DNA of 38,026 nucleotides from a virus. The notes under the pieces are model-generated. The model saw only the letters and a list, made by a program, of their open reading frames with translations, was not told the origin of the DNA and did not search any database. A program made the translations under genes and the position numbers. Shown piece after piece: positions 1,969 to 31,600 of this stretch. The first letter of the stretch is position 1. Every line of letters begins with the position of its first letter. The stretch is from positions 1 to 38,026 of the IMG/VR virus record IMGVR_UViG_3300022931_000004. One strand, given 5' to 3'.

Positions 1969-3711
1969 ATGACCGAATCTATTGATCAATACGCGTTAGA
2001 AACAACCTGGTCGACCAGAATTACCGATACAATAATACTTGAAGCTATTCGGGGACATATCCCATTGGATATGGAACTGAATATTCTTCAGGGGCTTGCT
2101 GATTTGAATAGAGGCAAGATGGCTAATAAAGATCTGTTTATTAAGTTCTTTTCTCTGATTCTTAGAGATAAAATTGGTAAACCTATCCAGGCAATTGCTA
2201 CTCAGCTTGGCCGTATGGCTGGTATTCAAGACTCTGCTGAAGCATTTGAATGGGGTATTTTACTGGTAAAGAGTTGTAAAGAGTCGGGCTTATATACCCT
2301 TAAACATATTGAAAATGAATGGTATGTATGCCCGAACTTTACTCTCGATAAACAAACCCAGCAAAAGTTAGCTAAGTTACAGTATCTGCCTCCCATGAAA
2401 GTAAAACCGTTAAATTGGACAGATAATCATAACGGTGGATGGTTATGGGAAACAAAGCACCTGATATTAGGTAGCAGATTTACCAAGCATAATAAACCTT
2501 TAGCTTATGATGTTATTAATAAGCTTCAATCGATTCCTTGGGAGATAGATGCTGATACATATCTCCTGGAGAAGGAAACTAATCATAATCTCAATAAGAG
2601 AAAATTCTTACGAGTTATTAACGAGTATATTGGTCAGCCATTTCATTTTGTATGGAGATATGATTCCCGGGGAAGAAGCTATTCATCCGGGTATGATCTA
2701 AATCTTCAAACAAATGAGTATGGCAAAGCTCTTATCTCATTGCATAATAAGGAGATGATTACCAATATACCCAATCTGTATATTGCTATTGCAAACCATG
2801 CCGGCCAGGATAAGCTTACCTGGAAGGAACGTATAAATTGGACAGCAAGTCAACCGGATGTTGATAAGATTCCTTGGGAAGAGCCTATCTTAGGCAGAAA
2901 GGCTGTTAGAGCGCTCAAAGATAGCACTGAAGGCAAACCTTCAGGGTATGTAATGAGTCTCGATGCGACAGCCTCAGGCCTTCAGATTATGGCTGCTCTA
3001 TCCGGGTGTAAGAAAACAGCTAAATTGGTCAATATGACTGATCCTACCACCAGATACGATGTATATGGTGAAATAGCTAATTTAATGAATGCTAATATAA
3101 ACAAGCCTGTACCTAGGAAAATCATTAAATATGCTGGGATGACTCATTACTATAACTCCAAAGCTACGCCTAAAGCCTTGCTCACAGAGCAAGAATTACA
3201 TGTATTTTATCAAGTAATTAAAGGCTTATTGCCAGGCGCCGAAGATGTTATGGATACGATCAATGCATGTTGGAACCCTGAAGCTGATCATCATACGTGG
3301 ACAATGCCCGATGGCCATACAGTATACGTACCAGTGGTTGAAGGTCTTAACGCTGTATATAGAGATCCTGAACTAGGAGAAATACCTCTCAGGTATTACC
3401 ATCAAACCTGTTCTGATAACTTTAGATCTTTACCGGCTAATGTTATTCATTCGATCGATGGTTATATAGCCCGGGAAATGGTTCGGTTATGTAACTTTCA
3501 ATTGAGTCATGTACATGATTGCTTTGTCTTTAGCCCAGATCACTTAAATGACGTAGTTAATACGTATAAGCTGATCATGGCTGATATTGCTTCAGGGGAT
3601 CTGCTTGCTGATATCCTGGGTCAAATTAGTAATAATCCTACTCTTAAGTTAAGCAAACATAGCAATGACTTAGATCAGGATATTCTTAAAAGCAGTTATA
3701 TGCTTTCTTAA
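1969..3711 (+). CDS. Compact single-subunit DNA-directed RNA polymerase (N4 RNAPII-like, one chain)
   Basis: This enzyme should synthesise phage middle mRNA from phage promoters. The T7-family motifs are all present. DSRGR (232-236) is the DxxGR element. Motif A has SLDATASG with catalytic D332. Motif B runs from R383 through K387 to Y395, matching T7 R627-K631-Y639. Motif C is VHDCF with D517, matching T7 D812. At 580 residues it is about 300 shorter than T7 RNAP, with roughly 190 residues missing before DxxGR. Most of the T7 N-terminal promoter-binding and RNA-sensing domain is therefore absent. N4 splits this enzyme into two polypeptides (gp15 and gp16), whereas here it is one continuous chain. 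AAGGAG precedes the ATG. A structured RNA and a terminator follow directly. Confidence 0.93.
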   Translation: MTESIDQYALETTWSTRITDTIILEAIRGHIPLDMELNILQGLADLNRGKMANKDLFIKFFSLILRDKIGKPIQAIATQLGRMAGIQDSAEAFEWGILLVKSCKESGLYTLKHIENEWYVCPNFTLDKQTQQKLAKLQYLPPMKVKPLNWTDNHNGGWLWETKHLILGSRFTKHNKPLAYDVINKLQSIPWEIDADTYLLEKETNHNLNKRKFLRVINEYIGQPFHFVWRYDSRGRSYSSGYDLNLQTNEYGKALISLHNKEMITNIPNLYIAIANHAGQDKLTWKERINWTASQPDVDKIPWEEPILGRKAVRALKDSTEGKPSGYVMSLDATASGLQIMAALSGCKKTAKLVNMTDPTTRYDVYGEIANLMNANINKPVPRKIIKYAGMTHYYNSKATPKALLTEQELHVFYQVIKGLLPGAEDVMDTINACWNPEADHHTWTMPDGHTVYVPVVEGLNAVYRDPELGEIPLRYYHQTCSDNFRSLPANVIHSIDGYIAREMVRLCNFQLSHVHDCFVFSPDHLNDVVNTYKLIMADIASGDLLADILGQISNNPTLKLSKHSNDLDQDILKSSYMLS

Positions 3712-4840: not shown

Positions 4841-5887
4841 ATGTATGAAGTAAATACCGTGCAATTACGTGAATGCTTAATTGAAGATCTCAAAGCAGGC
4901 CTTACCCCGATGGTAGCATCCAGTCCGGGTATGGGTAAATCAGATATTATCCGAGATGTAGCTAAACAGTTTAAACTCTTACTTATTGATATTCGTGTAT
5001 CTCAATGTGAGCCAGTGGATATGCAAGGTTATCCTGGAGTCATAGACGGAAGGATGACCTTTCATATCCCCGAATACTTTCCTATTGTGGGAGATGAATT
5101 ACCACTGACAAACAATCCAGAAGATCCTACAGAGCGATACGAAGGATGGTTAATATTTCTTGATGAACTTAATTCAGGAAATAAACAAACCGAAGCTGCA
5201 TCATATAAATTAATTTTGGATAGAGAAGTATATAAACATAAATTACATCCAAAATGTCTAATTGCTGCAGCCGGTAATTTAATCACAGATAGAGCTATCG
5301 TAAATACTCAAAGCACCGCTACTACCTCACGATTAATTAATTATAGATTGCAAATTGATCATAGAGCATGGATCGATTGGGCAAATGCCAATAACCTTGA
5401 TCATCGTATTATCTCTTTCATTAAATTTAAACCAGATATTCTGCATAAATTTGATCCAAATACCCAGGAGCTTACTTTTCCATGTCCTCGTACATGGGAA
5501 TTTGCTTCTAAAATTATTACTAATAAAACCACATTAGGGGAAATTACTAAAATCAGATTAGCCGGCACAGTTGGAGCAGGAGCTGCATCTGAACTAGCAG
5601 TCTATTCTGATATTTATAAAAGCTTACCTACGATCGAAGAAATACTTAAAGATCCTAGATCAGGATGGAAAGTTCCTACAGAACCTAGTGAGCAATATGC
5701 TGTGACTACGATGCTATCTCACAATACTACTGTAGAAAGTATAGATAAAATTATCATAGCTATTGAACGATTGCCTATCGATTTCCAGGTAATTACTTTT
5801 AAAGATATTTATAAGAGAACTCCTGAATTACAGAAACATCCTTCTATTGTTAATTGGATTTCAAGAAATGCAAGCATTATGTTCTGA
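4841..5887 (+). CDS. MoxR-type AAA+ ATPase
   Basis: This AAA+ ATPase is expected to use ATP to remodel protein partners. Walker A is SSPGMGKS (27-34, K33). Walker B is LIFLDELN (D108, E109). A sensor-1-like segment (IAAAGNL) follows, and an arginine-containing segment (STATTSRLINYRL) lies near 160. The 348-residue length fits MoxR proteins. MoxR ATPases commonly pair with VWA-domain proteins, and one lies downstream at 7354. N4-like phages carry the same pair (recalled as gp24 and gp25). The exact substrate is unknown. GAAGGA precedes the ATG. The stop overlaps the next ATG by one base. Confidence 0.88.
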   Translation: MYEVNTVQLRECLIEDLKAGLTPMVASSPGMGKSDIIRDVAKQFKLLLIDIRVSQCEPVDMQGYPGVIDGRMTFHIPEYFPIVGDELPLTNNPEDPTERYEGWLIFLDELNSGNKQTEAASYKLILDREVYKHKLHPKCLIAAAGNLITDRAIVNTQSTATTSRLINYRLQIDHRAWIDWANANNLDHRIISFIKFKPDILHKFDPNTQELTFPCPRTWEFASKIITNKTTLGEITKIRLAGTVGAGAASELAVYSDIYKSLPTIEEILKDPRSGWKVPTEPSEQYAVTTMLSHNTTVESIDKIIIAIERLPIDFQVITFKDIYKRTPELQKHPSIVNWISRNASIMF

Positions 5888-6051
5888 TGAGATATCGTAT
5901 TGAGCACTATAACCAGTATCAACGAGATCAATTTTTTCTAGATTATGAAGTTGAAAAAAATTGCTGGAAAAATATTGGAGTTTACTCAACATACGAAAAA
6001 GCTTTACAAGCTAAAGTTAAACATTTTTTAGAGGGTAATTATGCCAGTTAA
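5887..6051 (+). CDS. Small hypothetical protein (54 aa)
   Basis: The ATG at 5887 overlaps the TGA stop of the MoxR gene (TGATG), suggesting translation by re-initiation, since no good ribosome site is visible. The frame is open upstream to 5854, but that part lies inside the MoxR gene. The product is aromatic- and charge-rich (MRYRIEHYNQYQRDQFFLDYE...). It ends inside the first codons of the ligase gene. No family was recognised. Confidence 0.55.
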   Translation: MRYRIEHYNQYQRDQFFLDYEVEKNCWKNIGVYSTYEKALQAKVKHFLEGNYAS

Positions 6052-6931
6052 ACCTATGCTAGCTGCTAAAGCTACAGATATACAGATTAAAGATTTAATA
6101 GATAAATTCGGTCACATGATTGCCTCTCCTAAACTAGACGGCATCCGTTGTTTAATTCAAAATGGAATAGCTCTATCTAGGTCTCTTAAATTAATTCAAA
6201 ATCAGCACATTAAGATTCTATTAGCTAAAGAAGAATTTAATGGATTAGATGGAGAATTAATTGTGGGCAGTCCTACTGCTCATGATGTGTATAACCAAAC
6301 AGTTAGTGCTGTTATGCGATCATCCGGAATACCTAATTTCACATTCTATGTATTTGATCATTGTCTAAATGCAAATGCGTATATAGATAGATTTAATTTA
6401 TTAAAAGAATTTCCCTTACCTGAAAATATTCAAATTCTTCAATCTCAAATTATTACTAATATGAATGAGATGCAAGCGTATGAAGAATCTTGTTTACTGC
6501 AAGGATATGAAGGAATTATTCTCCGAGATCCAGGTGCTGAATATAAATACGGTAGATCCACAGCTAAGCAAGGACATCTTATTAAAGTAAAACGATTTAC
6601 TGATTCTGAAGCTACTATCGTTGGATTTGAAGAGCGTATGCACAATGCCAATGAAGCTAAAACAAATGAATTAGGCAGAACTCAACGTTCATCCCATCAA
6701 GAAAACAAAGTTCCTACAGGAACATTAGGAGCTTTAATTTGTCGAGATACAGAAACCGGTTTTGTATTTAACGTTGGTACAGGATTCTCAGATTTATTAC
6801 GTCAAGATATATGGGATGGTCGTAAGCAAGAAATGGGCAGATTAATTAAATATAAATATTTTCATATTGGGGTAAAAGAATTACCTCGACATCCCGTATT
6901 CATAGGATTTCGAGACCCATCTGATATATAG
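6041..6931 (+). CDS. ATP-dependent DNA ligase
   Basis: This enzyme seals nicks in duplex DNA via a lysyl-AMP intermediate. The nucleotidyltransferase motifs occur in order. KLDGIR has nucleophile K31. LDGELIV is the motif III region. YVFDHC and EGIILRDP (motif IV) follow, then LIKVKRF (motif V). A C-terminal OB-fold region includes VPTGTLGALICRD. The N-terminal KPMLAAK is typical of small phage ligases. At 296 residues it has the two-domain minimal form. GAGGG before the ATG supports the start inside the previous gene. It probably joins Okazaki fragments and repairs nicks during phage replication. Confidence 0.92.
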   Translation: MPVKPMLAAKATDIQIKDLIDKFGHMIASPKLDGIRCLIQNGIALSRSLKLIQNQHIKILLAKEEFNGLDGELIVGSPTAHDVYNQTVSAVMRSSGIPNFTFYVFDHCLNANAYIDRFNLLKEFPLPENIQILQSQIITNMNEMQAYEESCLLQGYEGIILRDPGAEYKYGRSTAKQGHLIKVKRFTDSEATIVGFEERMHNANEAKTNELGRTQRSSHQENKVPTGTLGALICRDTETGFVFNVGTGFSDLLRQDIWDGRKQEMGRLIKYKYFHIGVKELPRHPVFIGFRDPSDI

Positions 6932-8619: not shown

Positions 8620-10326
8620 ATGCCTGATATAACTACAGTAATTTTAATTAAAGAATCTGCAATGGGTACTGCAGCAATTGATACCCACTACTTGCAGCCT
8701 TTAGCTAAAGAAGGAATCCCTACTGATGCTATATTAATAAAGCCTTTATATTATAATAATGCAGTTAAAGTTTACGCTAAAACTGCTAAAGCTTATCTAG
8801 ATAAATTACTTAGCAGGATCCCTGATACTGTTATTAATTTAATTATTGCAGATAGTAGCTATTACAAATTTATTACTGGTGCAGGAAAAGTATCTACGTA
8901 TTATGGCACTACAATAAAAGGTAAACATGATGGATATTCAGCATTTAATTGCGTATATGTTCCGAATTATAAGACACTTTTTAAGCAACCTGAAAACTCG
9001 CAATTAATTGATCTAGGACTTAAAGCTATAGCTGGTACAGGAACCTCTGTTTTAATTAAGACAGCTCAATACGGATTCGAATATGGATCCGATAGAGAAT
9101 TATTAGATTCACTACACAAGTATCCTGTACTGGCAGCAGATATTGAAACTACCGGGCTAACTCTTTATGATCAGATCGTATCGGTATCCTTCGCATGGAG
9201 TAAACATGATGGAATTGCAATTGATTTATCTATTACAGGTATGTATTACCTACGTAAATTCCTTCAAGCTTACACAGGTAAGCTAATATTCCATGGAGGA
9301 CTATATGACGGAAAGATGCTCATTCGACATTTATGGATGGAACATGGCACTGACTATGCAGGTATGCTTGAAGGTTTAAAATATTTTAAGGATATTGATG
9401 ACACGATGCTATTAGCTTTTATAGCTAAGAATGCAACTACGCATGTTGGACTGGGACTTAAAGAACTAGCTCTCGATTATGTCGGTAATTATGCTATCGA
9501 GATCGAAGATATAACCAAGTATACCAAGCAAGAAATCTTGCAATACAACTTGATTGATACTTTAGGTACTTTCTACCTATGGGAGAAGTACCAAGATGAA
9601 ATTACTTCCAGACCTTACGTAGAAATATTCCAGCCTAGTATCTACCCTATTCTTAAAATGATGCTAGTTGGTTTGCCTATGGATTCAGATAGAGTCAAAG
9701 AGGTAAATCAAATTCTGGCAGCTAAGCAAAAAATTCTTAATGAGCAAATTCAAGATAATAGCTGCGTAATGCATTTTAATATATTATTGCGAAAGAAAGC
9801 TTGTGATAAAAATAAAGCAGATCGTGCTGAAAGAATATTACAGGGAGTAAAGGTACGTACTCCTGTTAAAACAATTGATGCTTTTCAAGATATCGAATTT
9901 AATCCACGAAGCCCTCTACAGATAGGGCAATTATTTTTTGATACGTTAGGACTACCTGTATTAGAGAAAACAAAGACAGGAGCTCCTTCTACTAGCGGAG
10001 ATATATTAGAGAATTTAGCTAATCATACAACTAATCAAAATGTAATTGATTTGCTCGAATTTATACGAGAGCTAGCTGAAGCCAATAAAATTAATGGAAC
10101 TTTTATAAAAGCATTTATGCAAGAGAAGGATTTTCTACATGGTAGTCTTAAATTGGGTGGTGCTCAGTCAGGGCGTTTGTCTAGTAGCGATCCTAATCTT
10201 ACTAATCTCCCTGCGCACGGTCCAATGGGTAAACTCACAAAAAGTTGTATTGTTGCTCCTGGTAAAAAATACACAGTTGACAGTGTAAAATGGAATGCTA
10301 TACTGGCTCCAATCAATAACCCTTAA
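8620..10326 (+). CDS. DNA polymerase family A, piece 1: 3'-5' exonuclease and thumb
   Basis: This is the N-terminal part of a PolA-type replicative polymerase. The proofreading exonuclease is intact. Exo I is DIETTG (D174, E176), Exo II is GGLYDGKML (D230) and Exo III is YNLIDTLG (Y309, D313). The polymerase part reaches GAQSGRLSSSDPNLTNLP (R519 in the GRLSS motif), just before motif A. The reading frame then runs into inserted sequence after CIVAP and stops at 10326. The palm aspartates lie in the later pieces at 10808 and 11753. Removing the insert between the two CCTGGT copies rejoins it in frame with piece 2. AAGGAAG precedes the ATG. Confidence 0.92.
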   Translation: MPDITTVILIKESAMGTAAIDTHYLQPLAKEGIPTDAILIKPLYYNNAVKVYAKTAKAYLDKLLSRIPDTVINLIIADSSYYKFITGAGKVSTYYGTTIKGKHDGYSAFNCVYVPNYKTLFKQPENSQLIDLGLKAIAGTGTSVLIKTAQYGFEYGSDRELLDSLHKYPVLAADIETTGLTLYDQIVSVSFAWSKHDGIAIDLSITGMYYLRKFLQAYTGKLIFHGGLYDGKMLIRHLWMEHGTDYAGMLEGLKYFKDIDDTMLLAFIAKNATTHVGLGLKELALDYVGNYAIEIEDITKYTKQEILQYNLIDTLGTFYLWEKYQDEITSRPYVEIFQPSIYPILKMMLVGLPMDSDRVKEVNQILAAKQKILNEQIQDNSCVMHFNILLRKKACDKNKADRAERILQGVKVRTPVKTIDAFQDIEFNPRSPLQIGQLFFDTLGLPVLEKTKTGAPSTSGDILENLANHTTNQNVIDLLEFIRELAEANKINGTFIKAFMQEKDFLHGSLKLGGAQSGRLSSSDPNLTNLPAHGPMGKLTKSCIVAPGKKYTVDSVKWNAILAPINNP

Positions 10327-10966
10327 GAGGTGCTTATTATGGGACAGTACGCAAGAATACAAGACACTAGGTTATTTAGAACATGGGAATCTATAAACGG
10401 TAGATGCCATAACCCAAATTACTCAGGGTATTCCAAATACGGAGCTAAAGGTATTACTGTATGTCCCAATTGGAGAAACAACGCTAATGAATTTATGGCC
10501 TGGGCATTATTAAATGGATACACAGACAAATTAACTATTGAACGTAAAAATTTTACGTTTGGGTATACTCCTAAAAATTGCACTTGGATACCTGCAGAAT
10601 GCCAAGCAGGTAATCGAGGTATGACTGTTAAAAATACCTCAGGATATGTAGGAGTTAATTGGCATAAAAAAAAAGAAAAATGGTTTGCTAGAGTAACTAT
10701 TAAAAATAAACGAATTGAAATCGGTAAATTTGATGATGCATTAGAAGCTCATCAAGCCCGTAAACAATATTTTATTGATAATAACTTGCAGGAGCATTTG
10801 AGAATATATGAATTACAGCACCAGCACATCTAATACTCTGTTAGAGATTAATTCTTTAATTAAAAGAAATGAAATAAAAGATTGTGAACAATTTGAAACA
10901 CTAGTTAATACATTACCGTCTGAATTACAACAACAAGTTAAAGAAGCATTTGAATACCATCCTGGT
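10264..10966 (+). mobile_element. Insertion 1 in the DNA polymerase gene (HNH-AP2 cassette)
   Basis: About 703 bp separate two copies of CCTGGT (10258-10263 and 10961-10966), both encoding the Pro-Gly just before polymerase motif A. Deleting one copy with the intervening DNA gives CIVAPGWLFAGADFS in one frame, as expected of an uninterrupted PolA. The cassette carries an HNH-AP2 homing-type endonuclease gene and supplies the first 51 residues of polymerase piece 2. A group I intron core was not recognised, and the boundaries lack the usual exon-U and terminal-G arrangement, but a catalytic intron cannot be fully excluded. Confidence 0.65.
10339..10833 (+). CDS. HNH homing endonuclease with AP2 DNA-binding domain
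   Basis: The N-terminal part follows the HNH endonuclease pattern found in phage homing enzymes, with RCHNP, KYGAKGITVCPNW, a conserved acid-Arg pair (TIERK) and an NCTWIP segment. The C-terminal part (about residues 103-145) is an AP2-type DNA-binding domain (GYVGVNWHKKKEKWFARVTI). The gene sits inside the interrupted DNA polymerase gene and probably spreads that insertion by cutting empty alleles. ATG at 10339 is preferred over the in-frame GTG at 10330 because AGAGG lies 7-8 nt upstream. Its end overlaps polymerase piece 2 by 26 nt. Confidence 0.9.
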   Translation: MGQYARIQDTRLFRTWESINGRCHNPNYSGYSKYGAKGITVCPNWRNNANEFMAWALLNGYTDKLTIERKNFTFGYTPKNCTWIPAECQAGNRGMTVKNTSGYVGVNWHKKKEKWFARVTIKNKRIEIGKFDDALEAHQARKQYFIDNNLQEHLRIYELQHQHI

Positions 10967-11194
10967 TGGCTCTTTGCTGGTGCTGATTTTTCAGCTCTTG
11001 AGGAGCGTATTGGCGCTATTTTAAGTCAAGATCCTAATAGGATTAAAGTATATACAGATGGATATGATGGCCATTCTATGAGGGCTTACAAATATTTTGC
11101 TGATCAAATGCCAGATATTACTTCTGCACTAGCTAAAGCTAAAACAGCTACTAAATTCTGGATAAGTGATAAAGGAGAATATTGTTGTGAATAA
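10808..11194 (+). CDS. DNA polymerase family A, piece 2: palm motif A
   Basis: Only 128 residues long. It carries polymerase motif A in GADFSALEER, where D60 is the first metal-binding aspartate, then the fingers segment DGYDGHSMRAY. The first 51 residues come from insertion 1 and resemble no polymerase segment. The last few residues (CCE) come from insertion 2. It starts at ATG 10808, inside the end of the HNH gene, with AGGAG about 13 nt upstream. If translated separately, it must assemble with pieces 1 and 3. If the transcript is spliced, the ORF is an artefact of the insertions. Confidence 0.85.
   Translation: MNYSTSTSNTLLEINSLIKRNEIKDCEQFETLVNTLPSELQQQVKEAFEYHPGWLFAGADFSALEERIGAILSQDPNRIKVYTDGYDGHSMRAYKYFADQMPDITSALAKAKTATKFWISDKGEYCCE
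11171..11183 (+). repeat. Direct repeat, left copy, bounding insertion 2
   Basis: AAAGGAGAATATT here matches AAAGAAGAATATT at 11768-11780 in 12 of 13 positions. Both encode Lys-(Gly/Glu)-Glu-Tyr in the polymerase frame. The offset is 597 bp, a multiple of three, so collapsing the repeats gives KGEYLAGTINS in one frame. Confidence 0.75.
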
Positions 11195-11780
11195 TTTTAT
11201 ATCAGAACCTGCAGTAACTTATGAAATTAGATGTAAATTACTTGAATGGGCTAAAGAACAGTCAACTACTATTATTGCTTCAAGAATAGAAGCACAAGGA
11301 TATGATTATGTAAACCCAGCAGATACTATATTTCCAGGGGAATATGACAATATATTTATGTATGCCGATGCAGAATTAGTTTTTACTGATCCTGTTGATA
11401 TACAAACATTAAATTCTACATTTTCAAGTTTTGGAAAAATAAAAGCAAATTCTCCTGAATCTGAATTATCACAATTAATGTGTGATGTACCTGAAATAGC
11501 TGAAGTAGAAGTAACTAAACATAGTAAATCTGATGAATATTATTATGCTTATTTCACAAATTTAAATTCTTTTATTCAAATCTATCCAGCTAGATTATAT
11601 TTTGAACCTTATGGATTACCTGCAACTCTTAAAGTTAGTCAACTTTTAGAAGATAAACGTGATCTAGAAGGATTCAATTCAATAGATATCTATCGTAATT
11701 GGCTACCTCACGATAAACAAAATAGTATTTCATATCCTAAATAGAGGTATTTATGAATCTTATAACTAAAGAAGAATATT
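11184..11780 (+). mobile_element. Insertion 2 in the DNA polymerase gene
   Basis: A 597-bp segment lies between 12-of-13-matching direct repeats and splits polymerase motif A from motifs B and C. Nearly all of it (11187-11744) is one ORF that is not a recognisable endonuclease. Too little sequence lies outside the ORF for a normal group I intron core. Its base composition looks more AT-rich by eye than the polymerase sequence. It behaves like a second gene insertion that has been made tolerable by new start and stop signals around it. Confidence 0.6.
11187..11744 (+). CDS. Unknown ORF inserted in the DNA polymerase gene (185 aa)
   Basis: GTG at 11187 has AAAGGAG at good spacing, so I prefer it to the ATG at 11166, which lies inside polymerase piece 2. 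The product is acidic, soluble and rich in Tyr and Phe (MNNFISEPAVTYEIRCKLLE at the start). It has no HNH, GIY-YIG or LAGLIDADG motif that I can see. It occupies almost the whole of insertion 2. It could be a highly diverged homing endonuclease, a cargo gene or a polymerase-associated factor. The function is unknown. Confidence 0.7.
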   Translation: MNNFISEPAVTYEIRCKLLEWAKEQSTTIIASRIEAQGYDYVNPADTIFPGEYDNIFMYADAELVFTDPVDIQTLNSTFSSFGKIKANSPESELSQLMCDVPEIAEVEVTKHSKSDEYYYAYFTNLNSFIQIYPARLYFEPYGLPATLKVSQLLEDKRDLEGFNSIDIYRNWLPHDKQNSISYPK

Positions 11781-12460
11781 TAGCTGGAACAATTAATTCT
11801 ATCGCTACTAAATATTCAGAGCTTAGAACTAAATCTAAGCCTCCTACGTTTGCTCTTCAATACGACGGTACCTGGTTTACATTGCATAAACGAACAGGCT
11901 TTCCTAAAGAACAAGCTAAACAGATAGAGAAATCATTTCATGAACTCTACGCGGTCTCCGGGGAATTCAATAAGAAGAATAAAGAATTTATGGAGAAGCA
12001 TGGCTATATAGAATGTGCATTCGGACTAAAGCTAAGAACTCCGATTATTTCGCAGTGCGTAATGGGAAATTCTAAAACTCCCTATGAAGCTGAAAGCGAA
12101 GGACGTAGCGCTAATAACGCAGTAACTCAGTCATGGGGCATGTTGCTTAATCGAGCAATCATTGCTGCTAATAGACGTATTGAAGAAGCTGGGCATGGAA
12201 CTGCTATTCTTCCCTGTAACATGATTCATGATGCAGGATATTTCTTAGTAAAAGCAGAACCTCAGTATATTAAATTTTTAAATGATGTACTGATAGAGGA
12301 GATGGAATGGAACGATAATGATCTAATTAGATCTACAGATGTTCCTATGAAAGCTTCACTTGAAGTCGGTAAGTCTTGGGATAAATTAGTCCCATTACAT
12401 AACAATGCAACTCTTAAGGAAATTACAGATGTCTTTCCAATTCTCACAGGATCAGGTTGA
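11753..12460 (+). CDS. DNA polymerase family A, piece 3: fingers and palm motif C
   Basis: This is the C-terminal part of the interrupted PolA. Motif B follows R-x3-K-x7-Y (R25, K29, Y37), with PTFALQYDG in place of the usual YG ending. Motif C is MIHDAG, with catalytic D160 after H159. About 19 residues at the start, up to KEEY, correspond to the duplicated junction. AGAGG about 5-8 nt before the ATG allows separate translation. With pieces 1 and 2 it completes all the active-site elements, so the enzyme is probably functional either by assembly or by RNA splicing. It overlaps the helicase gene by 32 nt. Confidence 0.9.
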   Translation: MNLITKEEYLAGTINSIATKYSELRTKSKPPTFALQYDGTWFTLHKRTGFPKEQAKQIEKSFHELYAVSGEFNKKNKEFMEKHGYIECAFGLKLRTPIISQCVMGNSKTPYEAESEGRSANNAVTQSWGMLLNRAIIAANRRIEEAGHGTAILPCNMIHDAGYFLVKAEPQYIKFLNDVLIEEMEWNDNDLIRSTDVPMKASLEVGKSWDKLVPLHNNATLKEITDVFPILTGSG

Positions 12461-13727
12461 TGCAGTAGACGGTATTTGTCGTACGTTACTTGATCCTTCT
12501 AATAAATCTCATGCCATAGCAGTTCTTACCGGGTCAGCAGGTACTGGTAAGACTACTGTAGTTACGGAAATTCTTGATAGAATTAGTCAACATACCCAAA
12601 AAACTAATGTTGAATTGTCTGCTACTACTCATAGAGCTGCGATGGTACTTCGAGATATTTCAGGAAAGCCTGTAACGACAGCTCATTCATTATTTAAGTT
12701 ACGCCCTAGTCTTGATAAATTTGGAAAAGAAACTCTTAAAAGTACTGGGATGTGCAATATTCCTTATGGATCTGTTCTTATTATTGATGAGACATCAATG
12801 ATTGGGAACAAATTCTTACATGCTATTGTAGATATCATTAAGAAACGGTCTCTAAAAATATTATTTGTAGGAGATCCCTTTCAACTGCCGCCGCCTACAG
12901 ATACTTGCAGTATCTTTGACGGCTCGTTGCAAACTTTCACACTTACTCAAGTCCATCGACAAGCAGGAGGTAATCCTATCCTCGAGAAGGCTAATGAGTT
13001 CCGTGAATTTATAGAAGGTATTCGTAATGTTGAGCCAGTAATAGAAACATGTATTAACGCTAAAGGCGAAGGTATTCACATATTACCTCATACAGAATTT
13101 ATTACTAAATTCGTTCATAAATATGTAGACTATTCTGCTGGAGCACCAGTAGATGTGCCACTCTGTACTTACACAAATGAATCTGCTATTAATTATAATA
13201 ATATGATTCGTAAGGCAGCGTATTTCCTTGAAGACACTATCAAACCTTTCTATGTAGGCGAAAGATTAATTACTAATAGTGTTGTTATGCGGGGAGAACG
13301 TCCTCTTCTAACAAATAACGAAGCAGTACATGTTATTTCGTATGAAGAAGGAGAGTTTGCTGAAATTCCCGGGTACTTTGTAACAGTACGCGGAGATTTT
13401 AATCCTGCTAATGGTTCTGATAAGAAAAAAGTATTTGTTCCTAAAAATAAAGCAGCAGTAGATAAGGTTCTTAATGTGCATAAAGATAGGGCTATTAAAA
13501 CTAAATCTAAAGCAGCCTGGGTACATTTCTATGAACTAAAGCAATCTTTAGCTGATCTACGCCCACCATTTGCTGGTACTACTCACAAAGCTCAAGGTGG
13601 AACATTTCCTGCCGTATTCATAGATAGAACAAATATTAATAAATGTCATATCCCAGCTGTTAAAGCCAGATTACTCTATGTTGCTCTTACTCGAGCTAGT
13701 AAAAACGTATATATAAACGGTGGTTAA
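12429..13727 (+). CDS. SF1 helicase (Dda/RecD-like)
   Basis: This ATP-driven DNA helicase has the SF1B motif series. Walker A is GSAGTGKTT (35-43). Walker B is LIIDETSM (D120, E121). Motif III is FVGDPFQLPP and motif IV is QVHRQ. The C-terminal UvrD-like half has TTHKAQGGTF (motif V) and LLYVALTRAS (motif VI). The 432-residue length suits Dda-type helicases, which remodel protein-bound DNA and assist replication starts. The ATG at 12429 is chosen over one at 12405 because AAGGA stands about 8 nt upstream. It overlaps the polymerase gene, so the two are coupled. Confidence 0.9.
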   Translation: MSFQFSQDQVDAVDGICRTLLDPSNKSHAIAVLTGSAGTGKTTVVTEILDRISQHTQKTNVELSATTHRAAMVLRDISGKPVTTAHSLFKLRPSLDKFGKETLKSTGMCNIPYGSVLIIDETSMIGNKFLHAIVDIIKKRSLKILFVGDPFQLPPPTDTCSIFDGSLQTFTLTQVHRQAGGNPILEKANEFREFIEGIRNVEPVIETCINAKGEGIHILPHTEFITKFVHKYVDYSAGAPVDVPLCTYTNESAINYNNMIRKAAYFLEDTIKPFYVGERLITNSVVMRGERPLLTNNEAVHVISYEEGEFAEIPGYFVTVRGDFNPANGSDKKKVFVPKNKAAVDKVLNVHKDRAIKTKSKAAWVHFYELKQSLADLRPPFAGTTHKAQGGTFPAVFIDRTNINKCHIPAVKARLLYVALTRASKNVYINGG

Positions 13728-13741
13728 TATAAGGAATTACT

Positions 13742-14731
13742 ATGGCATTTACTTACACAAATAAACATAATATTCCATTAGCTCTAGCAGTCTTCTTAAT
13801 GTATGACGACTATGGTTATGACGAGAGATCTAATGCTATCAGCGCTACGAGTCTCATGAAACCAATGCGTCAGATAGTACTTAGTCAGCAAAACAAGCAA
13901 CTGCTTAAAACAGTAGATATTTCTGATCTAGTAGCATCTCGTATGGGCTCATCTATTCATGATGGCTGTGAAAAAGCTTGGACAGATATGGATAATATTG
14001 CCAAAGCTCTTAAGTTAGCGGGCGCATCTGATATAGCTATTGAGAGTATTCGAATTAATCCTGATAAGCCAGTTAAAGAAGATGAAATTGCTATTTATGT
14101 AGAGCAACGTACAGAAAAAGAAATCATTGGTTATGTTGTCACAGGTAAATTTGATTTAGTTATGCATGGTGTAGTTAACGATTATAAAACTGGCAGTGTC
14201 TGGGGCTATATCTATGATAGTAATGCCCAGAATCATATTAAACAAGGCAGTATTTATAAGTGGCTTAATCAAGATAAAATTACCAGTGAGTATATTAATA
14301 TTAATTATATATTCACAGATTGGTCAGCTGCTAACGCTAGACAGGATCCGAAAGGGTATCCTCAACTACGATGTATAACTAAAAAATATCCTCTTTGGGG
14401 ACCTGAAGAGACCGAACATTGGATCATGAATAGGCTCGAAGCATATCAAGAATTAGCTGATGCTACTCAAGATTTGCTCCCAAAATGCACAGATGAAGAA
14501 TTATGGGCCTCTAAGACGGTGCACAAGTACTATAAAAATCCTAACTCGATGTCTAGGTCTACCAAAAATTTTGATGATATACAGGATGCTATAACTCGTA
14601 AAGCTAATGATGGCGATGTCGGTGTCATTAAAACTGTTCCTGGCGAAGTCAAAGCATGTCAATATTGTGCAGTTGTTGGTGTCTGCGATCAAGCAGAAGA
14701 AATGCTGGCAAGTGGACGTTTAGTACTATAG
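13742..14731 (+). CDS. PD-(D/E)XK nuclease with probable Fe-S cluster (Cas4/DUF2800-like)
   Basis: The catalytic core reads GKFDLVMHGVVNDYKTGS, with D138 and the D147-x-K149 pair, a PD-(D/E)XK nuclease signature. C76 near the N-terminus and the C-terminal C306-x2-C309-x5-C315 match the four-cysteine Fe-S arrangement of Cas4 and AddB nucleases. The 329-residue length and position after polymerase and helicase match the DUF2800 gene that I recall in N4-like phages. It probably acts as an exonuclease in DNA processing or recombination. AAGGAA before the ATG supports the start. The tRNA gene begins 6 nt after its stop. Confidence 0.87.
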   Translation: MAFTYTNKHNIPLALAVFLMYDDYGYDERSNAISATSLMKPMRQIVLSQQNKQLLKTVDISDLVASRMGSSIHDGCEKAWTDMDNIAKALKLAGASDIAIESIRINPDKPVKEDEIAIYVEQRTEKEIIGYVVTGKFDLVMHGVVNDYKTGSVWGYIYDSNAQNHIKQGSIYKWLNQDKITSEYININYIFTDWSAANARQDPKGYPQLRCITKKYPLWGPEETEHWIMNRLEAYQELADATQDLLPKCTDEELWASKTVHKYYKNPNSMSRSTKNFDDIQDAITRKANDGDVGVIKTVPGEVKACQYCAVVGVCDQAEEMLASGRLVL

Positions 14732-22502: not shown

Positions 22503-22673
22503 ATGTTCAAAAAATTCTGGTTAACGACTAAAAGTATTTTATGGGCAATAGGATTAATAGCGACAATTATTGCTGCTCTTATTATTATATTTTTAACTAT
22601 TCCAGTAGCAATTTTTGCCATATTAATTCTTGTTATATATTATGTGATTAAGTCATCAATAGAAGAGAATTAA
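22503..22673 (+). CDS. Small membrane protein with two hydrophobic segments (56 aa)
   Basis: The product starts MFKKFWLTTKS and is then almost entirely hydrophobic (ILWAIGLIATIIAALIIIF, then IPVAIFAILILVIYYVI), ending in a charged SSIEEN tail. Two transmembrane helices with a Thr-Ile-Pro turn are likely. Holins often look like this, but holin identity cannot be shown here. The ribosome site is weak. Its TAA (22671-22673) overlaps the stop codon of the opposing giant gene (22670-22672). Confidence 0.6.
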   Translation: MFKKFWLTTKSILWAIGLIATIIAALIIIFLTIPVAIFAILILVIYYVIKSSIEEN

Positions 22674-25600
22674 CCAAATATATCTTTTAGTGCTTCTAAT
22701 AAAGATACGTTATTGGCTTCATCAAGCAGATCATCGAACTGAAGCATATTAGGAGATATATCCCCGCTAAGCCATGCAGCATTTACATTACCTAAAGTAG
22801 GTATTCCAGTAAGACCTTGGATTGCAGCAGATAAACCTACTCCAGTAGGATTAGTTTGAGCTAACCTTCTAGCGGCTCTTTGATTACGCATGAAATAAGA
22901 AATAAATGAGGTAGCTCCGACTGCATCTATTGCTTCTAAAGCAGGTGTTAACGCCTCATCAAATAATACAAATGCATCTAATGATTCATGCATAGCTACT
23001 TCAAAGTCTTTATTTTCTACAGTAGTAAGATGTTCAATCATTACATATCTACCTAAGAAATCGGTAAGCTGTACCATTTGTCTAGCCAGTTGATATGGTG
23101 CACTGGTCTTAGTCATAAACATAATAGCAGCAGTTTCACTTACTGAATTAGGAACCCTATCAGCAAACTCTGAAAATGTTTTATCTACTTTAAGAGTACG
23201 TTTAATACGATTAAAAAATCCATCAATTTGAGCTTCGTTGACGTCTTCCACAATAAGTGAATTAAGTCCTGCTGCAGTCATTCTATGAATTTTATTATTC
23301 TCAATTCTTACTTTTAGTTGCTCAGCTTTTATAGCTTCTGGGCTATTAGCTCCTAATTGCTTAGACCCAATTCTATGTAATAGTGATGTACGTGCATCAG
23401 TATCTTTTCGGTATCTTTGGTATTCATGAAATCCTTCTAGTATTTTACGGATAGTAAAAGTTATAGGGATGTTTCGCATGCTTAATTGAGCAATGTTTGA
23501 AATCATATTACCAAAAACTACCTTAGGCATTGCTACAACAATACGGTCCTTACCGTAACCTACAATTTGCCTAAGTATATAATGAAAGATACCTACGTAT
23601 CTTTTAACTCTCCCCATTGACTCGCCTTGCAAAAACTTAAATTGACTAAAATCCCATACTTTATATCCAAATACTTTATCTACTATATCCTCCCTAACCA
23701 TAAATTTTCCATTTACAGCAAAAGACTTCATATAGTCACGTACTTCTTTTGGGAGTTTTCTAAATCGATCTACATAATTAGGATCATTTATAAAATCAAT
23801 AAATATATCTGGATGCGATTTATGCATATCGCTTTGTTCATGAACTAAAAGCTTTACTACTTCTAAATCATTATCAATTGTATTTTTACGATCAATATAC
23901 ACGGAATGCATATGAGCAAATACATTTTGTATTTCTAGATCTGGGCGTAGTAATTGTTTTTTAGTTTCATTACCCATCATTACGCGATAATCAACAATTT
24001 TATTTTGATCATCTCGAAGAGGACGAAGTTTTATTTTTTTATTTTCAATTAATACTTTACCTTCTGCTAATTGTGTTTGATGAAATGCTGCAACTTTTCT
24101 TTCTATTTTAAAAAAGTCAGGATTACCGTTGCTGTCCTGAAAACCCTTATGCTTAGCTAAGATTTCAGTTAGCGTGGTACCCATATTTCTCTGATTTGTA
24201 GTTGATACGACACCAGACGCATCAGGAACTTCAGGAGTGGTCCGGGTAATATATAAAGTATCATGAGCCTGAGGAATACCTAAAATCTCTCCCAATGAAT
24301 AAGCTTCAGTGTACCCTTCCTTACTCATTTGTTTTTCTTGTGTAGAGAAACCTGTTCTCATACTAGTAAAATTATCTACTCGTTCGATAATATATCCTTT
24401 AACCATTTGTGTAGGATTGCTCTTAAACAAATGTTCTAACGAATTGCGCTTAAATAGAAGATGGCTATCTATCATATCTACAATGCCATTATCTTTAGAA
24501 TTTGCTTCCATTTCGTTATTGGCTAAAGTTTTTACTTGTTCCAGTTTTCGAGGATCAGCATAATTTAATGCAGCTAACGAAGCATACGCATCTAATAATT
24601 GTACTTGCTCAGCAGTAGGATTATCAAGTTCACCAATAGCAAGACTATAAGCATTTTGGTATGCGCCATGTAATTTAGTATTGCCTGTGCTGATGTGATA
24701 CCCAAGTTCATCAGCGTATTTGATTGCTCTATGTGAACGTGCAATATTCAATTTAGTTAAGATAGCTGCCTGTTCTTTTAATATTGCTTGCCTACTTATT
24801 CTATCAGCGCCAATTAAACGTACAATGGCTCGAGAAGATAACCCTATAAGTTTTAAACTAGAAATATCTGCTCTAAGCAATACGTCAGTTAAAGCTTCTC
24901 TCATATCTACTGTCATACCATGCGGATCACTTGGTTTTACTGTTTTCCAAATACCATTAAACCAGTTAGTAGTAAATCTCTCTGCTTCTTGTCGAGCTTT
25001 AGAAATATTAACTTTAGCATGTAATAATCTATCAATCATTATTTTAGATAGAGAACCTCTACCTACTTCATTAGCTATAGATCTTAATGTTTTATTAAGA
25101 GTCAGAAACATATGTTGTCTTGCGTTATGAGCACTGGCAGAATCACTCATAGTGAGAGCACCTACACTGGCAAGATCGCTTACTACTTGTTTAAATATTC
25201 CCACAGACTCTAATTGAATTAATTTAAGTCCCTGTTCTTCAGCATAATTTCTAATTTTCTGATCAGTATCAGAGAGATGAGTGTATATTTTAGTAATCTC
25301 TTTTCGAAGAATGCTTTCATGTTTACTCTGAATAGCTATTAACTGTTCAGTTACTGCTATCATTTCTTCAAAAGAATTGGCTCGTCCTTGTCTCTTATGA
25401 AATTTACGATTAATAAGTGCTTTAAACTCATCAACAATAAGATCAACCAAATGCAATAATTTACCTAATAGCCCTTTATTTCGTACCGGTAATTTAATAT
25501 TAGTACCAGATAGATATTTAATAAGAGATTTATTAGTTACAGCGTAAGCTAAAAATTCATGTAATCTATTTGCTTCTTTTGTAGGATTATCGAAAAGATA

Positions 25601-28600
25601 ATTATACTGTCGCTTGGCTGCAATAACATCCTCTGCAGAAGGATTTGTAATGCCTTCCAGGAAGATTAAATGTCCTTTACTGACAGGACCTATTTCATGT
25701 AAAGTCTGGTTATATAGCTGTTCAACTCGTCTAGCAAGCAAAGGCTCGCTAGCTAATGCAGCAGCTACCATTGCATGCACCATTTCATGTGTATACACTT
25801 CCTGAGGTGACTGTCCATTAGCAGATACTGGAGGCTGCCGGCTAAGTGAGAGCCTTACAGCATCACGAGCTAAGTCGTAATTGCCCTGGGTAATTCCATC
25901 AATTTCTTCGACAGTTAAATTAATCTGGGTAGTTGCATCCATGCCTTTAGCTAGCATATTCATTATTCTATTTAATACTAGCGTATGGGCATTCATATCC
26001 TCTGTGGAGGCATAATAATTAGCAGAGAATTCAGCAAATGTATCGAATAAAGAAATAAGATTACTGCCATTAACGTCTTTATTCATAATCGTAACTTCAT
26101 TGTCTCTTTTCAGATTATCTAATGAAGCAAATTGATTTAAGCTATCTGGATCCGTAGTTGAATGTTCTTTTAGAAATTCTCTTTTTGCGGTATCAACGTC
26201 ATCTGCCATAAGAGCATTTCGGGCAAATCTCCAAATTGGAGTAACTCTATCTATATCTTTTCTAGTTTTTATGCCAGCAGTATCTATATTTGCTTCAGCT
26301 AATAGCGCTGAAAAATCATATGCCCATTCATAAGCTTTTTGTGCAGTTAAGTTTCTAACTACTACTACCCCGCTAGGTATATGAGTAACTTGAGATGTCT
26401 TTCCTTTTCCAAAAATATCTTTATTTTTACCAGAATCAGGCTGTCCTTTATGTACGGCAAAATTTCCTAAAATAATAGCAGGAACATCTTTACCGCCATG
26501 AAGAACAGAAGGAATTGTATCGGAATCTGTAGGCGTCACTATAATATCAATCGTCTCTGTCATCTTAGGACGCTTAGCTCGCTTAACGCTTATAACTACT
26601 TTCTTTTCGAGCTCTGTTTCTAAAGTAACTTTCTTCTTCTTTACTTTAGGTTTAGTATTCTTTTTAGCTTTTTTACTTTCTTTCCGAGCTAAGAATAGCT
26701 GATGATTAAATACTTTCCCGCCTGCTTTAGAAACTTCTTTCTGTCTTTCAGCTCTACCTTCGGTAACAATTGCTAGAGCTTCAGCAATATTTGCCCGAAA
26801 TGCATTAAGGTCCTGAATATCTTCAGTCTTTCTAGCAAATTGATTTTGATGTCCTTCAGTTATTAACCATGTATTCAGTGCCTGCATTAAAGCTCGATTA
26901 CCATTAGCTTTATCTTTAGCTTCAGTAATTTTAATTACTGTGTCTACTTGATCGCTAATAGTTTGCAGGATGCTATGATTTTTATGGAGCTCATTAAATA
27001 CATTTCCGTACTCATTGGACACATCTTCTAATATTGAAGGATTAGCCATAATTGCGTCATGTAGAGCTAGGGCATTTGGAAACTTGGCTAATACTTTAGT
27101 TAATATGGCTGAGTCCATATTAATGATTAATCTAATAAGTGCACTTACTCCAGGAGATACAAATACACTTTGTCGTGGAGACCCACCGACATCAGAAGGA
27201 GTACCTTTTTCATTTGTGAAAGCAAACTTACTTACTTCCTCATTACTAATAGCCTGTGATAGTGCCCGTTTAGTTAAGTCAACAAATGCTCGCTCTTCTT
27301 TTGTCATGAGCGGGCCTTTGTATTGCGGGAATACATCTAATAACTGTTCTTCAATAAGAGCGTCTATCTCTTTTTTAGATAATGAAGATCTCTTACCTAA
27401 TTTCTCTGCATAAGCTTTCTCGAAATGCACCATAAAGGCTGCATGTAGGATCTCCCCAGATTGAATTACAGCGTCTCTAGCCTGTTGGGTACCTCCAAGC
27501 ATGCCGGTTAATCCATGATGGAATCTAGGAGCCAGGACCTCTCCTACGTTAGTTATTAGAAAGCTGTCATTGAGATATTTAGTTTGGGAAGTACCTTTTA
27601 CTATACTCCGGACAAAATCATCTCTACTTTGGAATCGATCTGTTTTACCTTTATTAAATTTAAAAGCGCCAATAGTCTCTAAATGATCTGCAAGTTTTCT
27701 AATTTTTTTTATTTCAGCTACCAATAGAGGAGCCTTTTGTGCTTCAGTCAATGTCTTGTCTTCTACAAGATCCTGATACTTGATATTCAAAGCACTTAAT
27801 TGCTGGTATATCTCTCCTACTATCAGTTTGGCAACACCTTCAGAGATGCTCTTAATGCCTCCTCCGTACATGAATATGAGAAACGGATACTTGACCAAGT
27901 CCCTAGAGTTTTCATCCCTTAATTGCTTATATATAGCTTTTAGAGCAGTATCTTTATTCTTATAAGCATCTTCATTAAAAAACTGATTTCTCTTTCTAGC
28001 GTATTCTGCAGCAATATCTGCATCTTCTCCTTCGATTACTTTTTCTACGAGAGTATGATAGATATCAAGAGCATCAGTATTGTGATGAATCTCATCTCCT
28101 TCTTTGCCTTTATATATCCCTACCTGATTTTGTACCTGTTCATTGAATTCTTCGCCGTATAGATTAGGAAATTGTCCTACGTTCTGAGCAAATCCATTAG
28201 AGATGCCATCAATTTCAAGCAGAGTATCTGAGCTAAAAGACTCACTTACTTCAGTAGGAGGTTTCCCATCAGGCATATAATTAGTTAATGCCACCAGCGC
28301 AGCAAATATAGAAATATCTCCGCCAAACTTATTCTGAATTTTAGGCAGTAATGTTTTTAATTTTTTGTCTTTCTTAGGATTCTTTCCTAAGTTAGCTAAA
28401 ATAATTACTGCCCTCTGTACATGCGGGTCATTTACTATGGTATCGAATTCAGCTTCAGAGGCAGCTAAATTTTGTTTATCTATTTTAACTCCAAGATGAG
28501 AAGCGACAGATTGCTTAAATAGATGAATATTATCTTTTGTGTAAACAGTAACTTTGTCATCTGATCTAAGTAATTGTCTAGTTACTTTGCTTTGTTGCGG

Positions 28601-31600
28601 GTTAATATTACCGTCCATCAAAATACGATGCTGATTTTGTAAACGATAAGTAAAAAAGAATTTCTCTAATTTATTATTTTCTGGCTTATTAGCTTCGAGT
28701 ACTTCATCCAAAGCAATTGTCTTATTAGCATTTGATGCGGAATCAGATAATTTAACGGCTTCGTGAGCACGTTTATGTATTTTAACTACGCCGGCCAAGG
28801 TGTCAATGACAGCACGTAAACCTGGGATCTCTGCAACAAGAGACAACATGTCCATAGCTTGTGCTTTAGTCCAGGCATTATTATGCATCCCTGTAAGTGT
28901 TTCTGTAACTTCTTCCGGTACTTTACCGTTTGAATTCCTAACCTCGGTAACAATATTTTTGCTAGGTTTTTGTAAAGGAAATTTATTATGGGACTGAATA
29001 CCAAATGCCTCTTCAGTTTCCTTTAAGGCAGCTGCTTCTTTATCTGAAAATTCAAATGGAGTTTCTTTATGCTCTTTTGTTCCGTCTTCGCTTATTGTAG
29101 TGACTCTAGGTGTATGAATCTGAATGTGTTTATATTCTGTGGCGTCTCTGAGCCCTACAGTCTTTGATCGGTAATTCAGTTCAGCACGAAGTATAGCCAT
29201 GTCTGCCATTATTGCTTTAAGGGCAGTTTTATCTTTTGATAATTTATTACGTAATTGCTGCATTACTGCTTGTAGCGAAGCAACCGTGGGATACGTTGTT
29301 TGGCTATGATATTTTAAATTCTTAGGTTTTGTAACATCCTTATTTAATTCATCTGCTATTTCTTGAGTTATCTTGCTATTGAATTTACGATCTGCATTAT
29401 AAGGAACTTGTTTAAAATTCCAGATATGGGACGCTACATGATAGCGAGAATCTGGTAATTTGGATCTTTCTTCAAAAGTTAATTTATTAAGTTTAGTGCT
29501 GGGACCGTGCTCTATTTGTATAGCTGCTAGTCCTAAAGCAATCTCTAAATGATCGAAGTAACCTGAGGTCTCTACATCGACCGAAGTTATCTTCAGTAAA
29601 GCAGCAATGCTTTTACCTGTAGATTCTGCCGTGTTGTTATACCCGGAGCCTACTTCATCAAGTTGCTCACTCTCTTCTCCGGTTAAATCAGTGTATGTAT
29701 TATATAAAAATTCTGATTTAGCAAAGCCACTTCTAAACGCTATATTAGTAGGATTCCTACTAATCATCTGCATTGAGCCTATAGCCATTGCAAATATGAT
29801 TTGTGGAGGTAATCCTTCTTCTCCTCGGTGGAGTAAAGATAGTGGCTTTCTAGCAGCAGGAATTCCGGTAGAGAAGGTTTCAGTAAGTTTAATGTCCTGA
29901 TACTTTTTAGCGAACCTATTATATTCGATGGTCATCTGAACAGCTGCAGGTCTACTTAAGCCTAATGTGATTAAGGCTCTTTGTAGCATTGCGTCACTTT
30001 TAAAGACAACATCAGGAAGAGCAAATATGCCAGTAGCTTCTTTGCCTTTCTTATTTACACGCACCTGAACTAGTTCAGCGAACTTCTTACTTAAAATACC
30101 TAAGGCGCTATCTCCGCTATCTGCTTTTAGTTCTTCTAATGTTGGAGCTTTTTCGCCCTTCTTTTGAGCTGCACGTTTTCTACCCGGGAGGGCTTTAGTT
30201 TTATTCTCAGTTAATTGCTCATCGGTAATAACAATAGGCAATGTATCTTTAGTTACTTCAATAAAGTTCTTGGTATCACCGAGATCTTTAAGTGCATCTA
30301 ATAACGCTGGGAAATCTTTTTTCCTATTCTTAATTACATCCAGATCAAATAAGCTGGCCAATTGATTTAGTATTAATCCAAATTGTTTTCTCTGCGGTCC
30401 AGTTAAATTAGCCTGCTCTTTTATTTTTAGTTTCCCATTTCTGGTAATGACTTCTGGGAATACCAGATACAGAGCTTGTTTGCTTAGCTCTTCAATAGGT
30501 ATAAATCGATCGGTTACATCGGAAGGAGCTAGATCATCTATTTCTTCTATTTCCGCAGTCTGCTCCCTGTTAGCATCTGCCTCTAAAAACTCTTTAGGTG
30601 TTTGCTCTTCTGCACTCTCACCAGCAAATTCATTTTCGAAATCACCAAAGTTACCTTCGGCACCAAATATTGCATCAAGATCGACGTCTTCAAAACTTTC
30701 ATTAGAAGGAATAATTACATCAGCAATTAGTATTAGGTCAGAGCTAGCTTCTAGTATCTGAGTTAATAAAGTATGCTGATGTTCTGGGATATTGAGAACA
30801 ATACGTACGACACTAACAAACTGTGACCATAAAGATGAAGGCTTATTCTTCGGTGTTTCACCATATTCATACTGGGGAGGAAGTTTCTTTAGGATATTTT
30901 GATAAAGTTTATTCGTCAATCCATATGTAATAAATTCTTCTGGAGTTTGATTTACTAATTTTTCTAAAATATTAATTTCTTTTTTTGTTAATTTTCCGCC
31001 AAATGCCCGTTCAGGATCTCTACCGCCATGTTCTATAGCATCAAATTCAACACGCAATAAACTATTTATTTTGTGTAACTCTTTAACAGCTGCTTTTTGT
31101 GCTTTAGTTATGGGGTTTGTAAAAGTATTCCGCACAGCTACATGAATAAGTTCATGTAATAATACTTCTTCTGTAGTAAGCACTTTATTATCTAAAGCAT
31201 TAGCATAAATGACAATACCAATAAATTCTGTAACAGACGTACTTGTGCCAGTAGGTTCTATATCTCTTTGTACTTCCACTCCATCTACAGTAACTATAGT
31301 AGATCCAAGTGCACTATCAGGTCTTTTTTCGCTAAATCTAACTTCTAGTTTACCAACTGTACCTAATAGTTGTTTTGCTACCCCTTTAAATTCTGGATTA
31401 ACTGCATTATCGATTAACCACTGTAAAGCTACGTCTGTAGTTTTAAATCCTTTTAGTAGCGTTTTAGTAAGTTTATTGGTTGAAGGAGCTTGTCTAGATG
31501 CTTGTAATCGCTCTAGGGCAGCAACTATTTTAACTGTATCTCCACCATCGGCAAAATCTTCAGTAATACCAAAATCATCATTTTCTTCTCGCTCTAAATC

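Follow-up and report, generated by a model that had tools for sequence, protein, structure and literature searches.

An N4-like marine phage with a twice-interrupted DNA polymerase gene and, probably, a three-chain enzyme

Split phage enzymes and the polymerase locus

Conserved enzyme genes that are divided by a homing endonuclease gene are known in phages. In Aeromonas phage Aeh1, the ribonucleotide reductase gene is arranged as nrdA-a/mobE/nrdA-b, with an HNH homing endonuclease inside the enzyme gene, and the NrdA split by mobE is an active enzyme made of separate chains (PMC2988022). Gene 43 of Aeromonas phages 25 and 44RR is a split DNA polymerase gene, associated in phage 25 with a seg endonuclease, and the gp43A and gp43B of phage 25 co-purify and polymerise (PMC2988022). 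Here we describe the DNA polymerase gene at positions 8620 to 12460 of a 38,026-nucleotide (nt) stretch, positions 1 to 38,026 of IMG/VR record IMGVR_UViG_3300022931_000004 (hereafter, the window), which comes from an N4-like (Schitoviridae-type) marine phage. The gene lies in three open reading frames (ORFs) separated by two insertions, at what we call sites 1 and 2. Judging from sequence comparison, its product is probably a three-chain family-A polymerase, the outcome of two homing-type insertions that supplied their own tags at the chain ends.

The kind of split is known; what is new is that one gene is split twice, that cargo ORFs are exchanged at site 2, and that phages that are not sisters have tags in common. 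Aeh1 has one split, in a ribonucleotide reductase, and phages 25 and 44RR have one split, in a family B polymerase, whereas the window has two splits with different cargo ORFs in a family-A polymerase. The N4-like Vibrio phages JA-1 and VchO139-I also have a polymerase gene interrupted with an HNH ORF (PMC3670811), but there the interruption lies about 10 codons downstream, bears group I intron hallmarks and is a different event. In the OM43 phages MEP401 and MEP402, a small ORF splits the family-A polymerase immediately before motif A, in MEP401 at the place corresponding to site 1 (PMC10580990); these differ in being Zobellviridae, with an orphan ORF of 78 residues, almost no extensions and one split. 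Finally, according to database annotation, Gamaleyavirus phages carry a polymerase of the same family that is split at site 1, with HNH cargo and homologous extensions, but they have no split at site 2 and their HNH protein is only ~40% identical. We found no publication that discusses the Gamaleyavirus split.

Two insertions and the new chain ends

All features of the locus lie on the plus strand. Piece 1 (8620..10326, 568 residues) holds the 3'-5' exonuclease (PF01612, E=1.5e-8) and the N-terminal family-A part, up to GRLSS (residue 518) and CIVAP; piece 2 (10808..11194, 128 residues) holds motif A with D60; and piece 3 (11753..12460, 235 residues) holds motif B with K29 and motif C with D160. 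All three match PF00476, in consecutive stretches of the profile (21-152, E=5.8e-21; 135-206, E=4e-9; 203-380, E=2.3e-16). This bears out the original prediction of a polymerase in three ORFs, with the motifs distributed in this way and every catalytic residue surviving, and a ribosome-binding-like sequence does lie upstream of each piece as had been proposed. The N4-like gene order, the PF00476 matches and the exonuclease together identify a family-A polymerase of the N4 gp39 type, whose nearest annotated matches are in N4-like phages at less than 60% identity. The same arrangement, with one difference in 3.84 kb, is found in a near-identical sister contig of 74,681 bp (L002, IMGVR_UViG_3300024327_000003), and this second assembly rules out an assembly artefact. 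No family A or B polymerase beyond the three pieces was found in this 74.7-kb contig, which is near full length, although its record has no completeness estimate and an unseen gene is formally possible; a backup polymerase was rejected on these grounds.

Intact relatives have neither insert, which demonstrates both insertions and supports the earlier claim that a once-intact gene was invaded. In the intact polymerases compared (L004, L007, L010 and others), site 1 measures 6 nt and site 2 usually 18 or 21 nt, the latter encoding a loop between MPDI and SINSI (MPDI-DPNDVD-SINSI, for example) that is 6 or 7 codons long in nearly all and 14 at most. The window has 706 nt at site 1 and 672 nt at site 2, giving net insertions of 700 and, against 21 nt in intact relatives, ~651 nt, rather than the 703 and 597 bp first reported. 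Nor does excision restore an expected KGEYLAGTINS, as had been thought: no relative that we saw carries it. A structural model of the intact polymerase L007 by AlphaFold2 (mean predicted local distance difference test score 80.7) is Klenow-like, matching Klenow, Bst and phage G20c polymerase I. In this model both break points fall in loops, site 1 in a turn at 548-551 just ahead of the motif A strand and site 2 in a loop at 599-606 between helices, ahead of the motif B region.

The insert at site 1, beyond what had been noticed, encodes an HNH homing endonuclease (10339..10833; phrog_374, E=1.1e-37) with a C-terminal AP2-like domain (PF00847, E=4.9e-6, below the curated cut-off). A metagenomic relative, L006, has only the site-1 split, with an HNH ORF 66% identical in the same place and with the same extensions. 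The split at site 1, with homologous extensions, is also found in the cultured E. coli Gamaleyavirus phages U1G, PGN829.1, ST4 and phiG17, whose annotation lists two "DNA polymerase I" genes flanking an HNH gene; in PGN829.1 (L070), the downstream one is annotated to start 276 nt too late (4989-5265), leaving out the homologous N-extension. The Gamaleyavirus insert falls precisely between a Pro codon and a Gly codon, and no target sequence is duplicated. Beside it there is a conversion tract: identity of ST4, U1G and phiG17 to the intact G7C drops to 64-85% close to the insert and is back at ~95% within 200-400 nt, and the diverged tracts vary in length and side among the three phages. Such tracts, seen in Gamaleyavirus only, are as expected of homing with co-conversion, and we read them as its footprint. 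In three Vibrio Varunavirus phages (PhiImVa-1, MS02 and BUCT194; L063, L067 and L068), the polymerase is intact but carries 66 additional residues in frame exactly at site 1; these may stem from a split that was re-sealed or from a separate domain insertion, and their similarity to the N-extension of the split enzymes is weak (10th among 2,000 shuffles; pairwise p=0.03-0.6).

At site 2, the cargo is ORF-X (11187..11744, 185 residues), whose GTG start lies within the last codons of piece 2. This orphan has no match in Pfam, PHROG, NCBIfam (above cut-off), PADLOC, PDB, INPHARED or genome_contigs. A different cargo occupies the same joint in the contig L005, which is split at site 2 only: a GIY-YIG ORF (PF01541, E=2.5e-7) that has no real similarity to ORF-X and is flanked by the same extensions. 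A third sequence, L012, is a contig that starts at piece 3 and carries the same N-extension, MKKVITKKEYIVG. Because L006 is split at site 1 only and L005 at site 2 only, the window combines two splits that are found apart elsewhere. A search of IMG/VR by DNA patterns gave no carriers besides those named. Escherichia phage Bp4 (L066) has two annotated polymerase genes with no insert between them and a site-2 loop of 17 instead of 18 nt; this 1-nt difference points to a frameshift or an error in sequencing and sets Bp4 apart from the real splits.

Each joint had been said to be marked by short direct repeats arising from duplication of polymerase sequence. The repeats exist, but they are not marks of such a duplication. 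The first, CCTGGT (10258..10263 and 10961..10966), is within chance, since a match as good as the 7-mer TCCTGGT is expected between two random 60-nt stretches with p=0.19, and it is absent from other site-1 insertions. The second, AAAG(G/A)AGAATATT, is unusual (p=0.005), with copies AAAGGAGAATATT at 11171..11183 and AAAGAAGAATATT at 11768..11780. Neither copy is native polymerase sequence, intact relatives having only the short loop here, and the first copy also supplies the Shine-Dalgarno-like AAAGGAG ahead of the GTG of ORF-X. Target-site duplication was consequently rejected for both.

What the inserts do bring, again unremarked before, are non-native ends: each break adds a new C-tail to the upstream chain and a new N-extension to the downstream chain, both missing in intact enzymes. 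Piece 1 ends in a 21-residue tail (10261..10326; GKKYTVDSVKWNAILAPINNP and a stop codon), identical to that of L006 at 10 of 21 positions and similar to that of Gamaleyavirus. Piece 2 opens with a 51-residue extension (10808..10960) that overlaps the HNH stop codon and is predicted to be helical. It is common to the window, L006 and Gamaleyavirus (p=0.0008 and 0.003 against shuffles), and nonsynonymous changes in it are depleted (p=1.5e-4); in an AlphaFold2 model of the C-terminal chain of L006, it forms three helices (5-19, 26-33 and 38-46) at moderate to low confidence. An apparent match of this extension to inbricus and JWAlpha was set aside, as those phages carry an unrelated insert further upstream. 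Piece 2 closes with 24 residues (11120..11194; TSALAKAKTATKFWISDKGEYCCE and a stop codon) that are common to L005 and occur in no intact relative, and piece 3 opens with MNLITKEEYLAGT (11753..11791), common to L005 and L012. Nonsynonymous changes are depleted in both (p=1.3e-3, and p=7e-5 over the first 16 codons, respectively). By these substitution patterns, three of the four new termini are translated, selected protein ends.

When a tree is built from the C-terminal core that the polymerases share, the window, L005 and L012, all split at site 2, need three changes, and the approximately unbiased (AU) test rejects them as one clade (p=4.6e-5), as it does the window with L012 (p=2.5e-5). Since the carriers do not form one clade, the extensions either travelled along with the insert or have been lost repeatedly.

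Genes around the polymerase and introns in a relative

The polymerase stands in an N4-like replication block, whose other genes were assigned from gene order and general background, with an RNA polymerase subunit (1969-3711), an AAA ATPase, a metallopeptidase/VWA protein, a helicase, a primase-like protein and a single-stranded-DNA-binding-like protein. Within the block there is an ATP-dependent DNA-ligase-like gene (6041-6931, plus strand), which to our knowledge is unusual among N4-like phages. The minus strand encodes a giant protein of 4208 residues that, on the same grounds, is presumably the vRNAP (22670-35296). It is well above the ~3500 residues of N4 vRNAP and has two HExxH motifs (HELIH and HEMVH), resembling metallopeptidase-type insertions.

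Vibrio phage JA-1 (L084) has group I-like introns with HNH ORFs in or near gp24, the polymerase gene and gp43 (591-835, 2182-2539, 8700-9520 and 12859-13929). The polymerase intron carries GATATAGTCC, yet Rfam missed it at E<=1.

Accounts of the split and their meaning

Most likely, two free-standing elements of the homing-endonuclease type entered the single replicative family-A polymerase gene, each splitting it in place. The three pieces would then be translated separately from one operon, through overlapping or closely spaced starts, and the chains would assemble non-covalently into an active enzyme with its catalytic aspartates on different chains. Each cassette would have carried a cargo ORF and short coding extensions, which became the C-tail of the upstream chain and the N-extension of the downstream chain and probably dock the chains to one another. 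ORF-X may have replaced an endonuclease cargo or be the relic of one. The interaction domains of the Aeh1 NrdA reportedly also derive from the mobile element (Crona et al. 2011). Separate translation, which would place the two metal-binding aspartates on different chains, had been suggested in the original prediction, and it is supported by the constrained termini, the lack of another polymerase and the cultured phages with the site-1 split. The Aeh1 and phage 25 enzymes are independent precedents for split phage enzymes that work (PMC2988022).

Several observations weigh against this account. For the piece 1 tail, constraint reaches significance between U1G and ST4 (p=0.009) but not between the window and L006 (p=0.28), and the tail resembles that of Gamaleyavirus only weakly. 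No endonuclease domain can be recognised in ORF-X. AlphaFold2 scores the piece 2 N-extension mostly at 58-67, falling to 45 at its end. That the site-2 carriers are not monophyletic depends chiefly on L012, whose upstream half, ahead of piece 3, is unseen; a clade of the window and L005 alone is not rejected (p=0.09).

Among the alternatives, the most serious is that the chains do work together but are held by the core fold alone, with the extensions being neutral read-through ends. The weak constraint on the piece 1 tail fits this, as does OM43 phage MEP401, which is split at the same site with almost no extension on either side. We nevertheless think it unlikely, given that homologous extensions persist in non-sister lineages under protein-level constraint. 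It is still less probable that self-splicing group I introns with ORFs occupy one or both sites, so that full-length polymerase comes from a spliced mRNA. Phage polymerase genes commonly hold group I introns with HNH ORFs (PMC11878797), and an intron was suggested for the HNH-split polymerase of JA-1 and VchO139-I (PMC3670811). With Rfam, neither the window nor L005, L006 and Gamaleyavirus gave a group I (RF00028) or group II match, even at E<=10. The sensitivity of Rfam is incomplete, and because it had missed the JA-1 interruption, the three JA-1 introns served as a control for the conserved 3' S-element: they score 10-11 of 12 positions, while the inserts score 7-9 of 12, the level of shuffled sequence. 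Besides its different position within motif A, the JA-1 intron has ~260 nt of non-coding sequence and no conserved extension, whereas the inserts described here leave almost no non-coding room and the sequence flanking their cargo is constrained as protein, which argues against introns. At site 2, moreover, splicing at the repeats would retain a segment of 20-odd residues that is absent from every intact relative.

Gene decay would make the pieces pseudogene fragments, with replication left to a host or unseen polymerase, and the double interruption of one essential gene could be read in that way. We consider this very improbable. Between the window and L006, the core of piece 2 has 8, 4 and 27 differences at the first, second and third codon positions, which indicates strong purifying selection after the split; the motifs are all intact, the sister contig has no other family A or B polymerase, and lytic Gamaleyavirus isolates bear the same site-1 split. 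Joining of the chains by protein trans-splicing of a split intein is hardly credible at all. Fractured polymerases with split inteins and HNH ORFs do exist, as in the PolB of MIJ3 (PMC6892783), but the piece 1 tail and the piece 2 C-extension are far shorter than the MIJ3 intein N-half and lack intein blocks, the extensions of pieces 2 and 3 have no terminal His-Asn before Cys, Ser or Thr, and there is no Pfam intein domain.

A three-chain enzyme from two homing-type insertions is thus the account that we prefer. More tentatively, such insertions may be self-contained splitting cassettes, each an exchangeable cargo with a pair of docking tags, that enter loops near catalytic motifs; in the window two would have entered successively and left a replicative polymerase of three chains that still works. 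The published reading of splits in N4-like phages is that they "may be introns", and at both sites studied here an intron is disfavoured. If the three chains form an active enzyme, its two metal-binding aspartates sit on separate polypeptides in a working replicative polymerase, and the break points show where family A, in its most conserved part, tolerates fission. Conserved, horizontally spread extensions make it directly testable how a parasite of an essential gene keeps its host alive.

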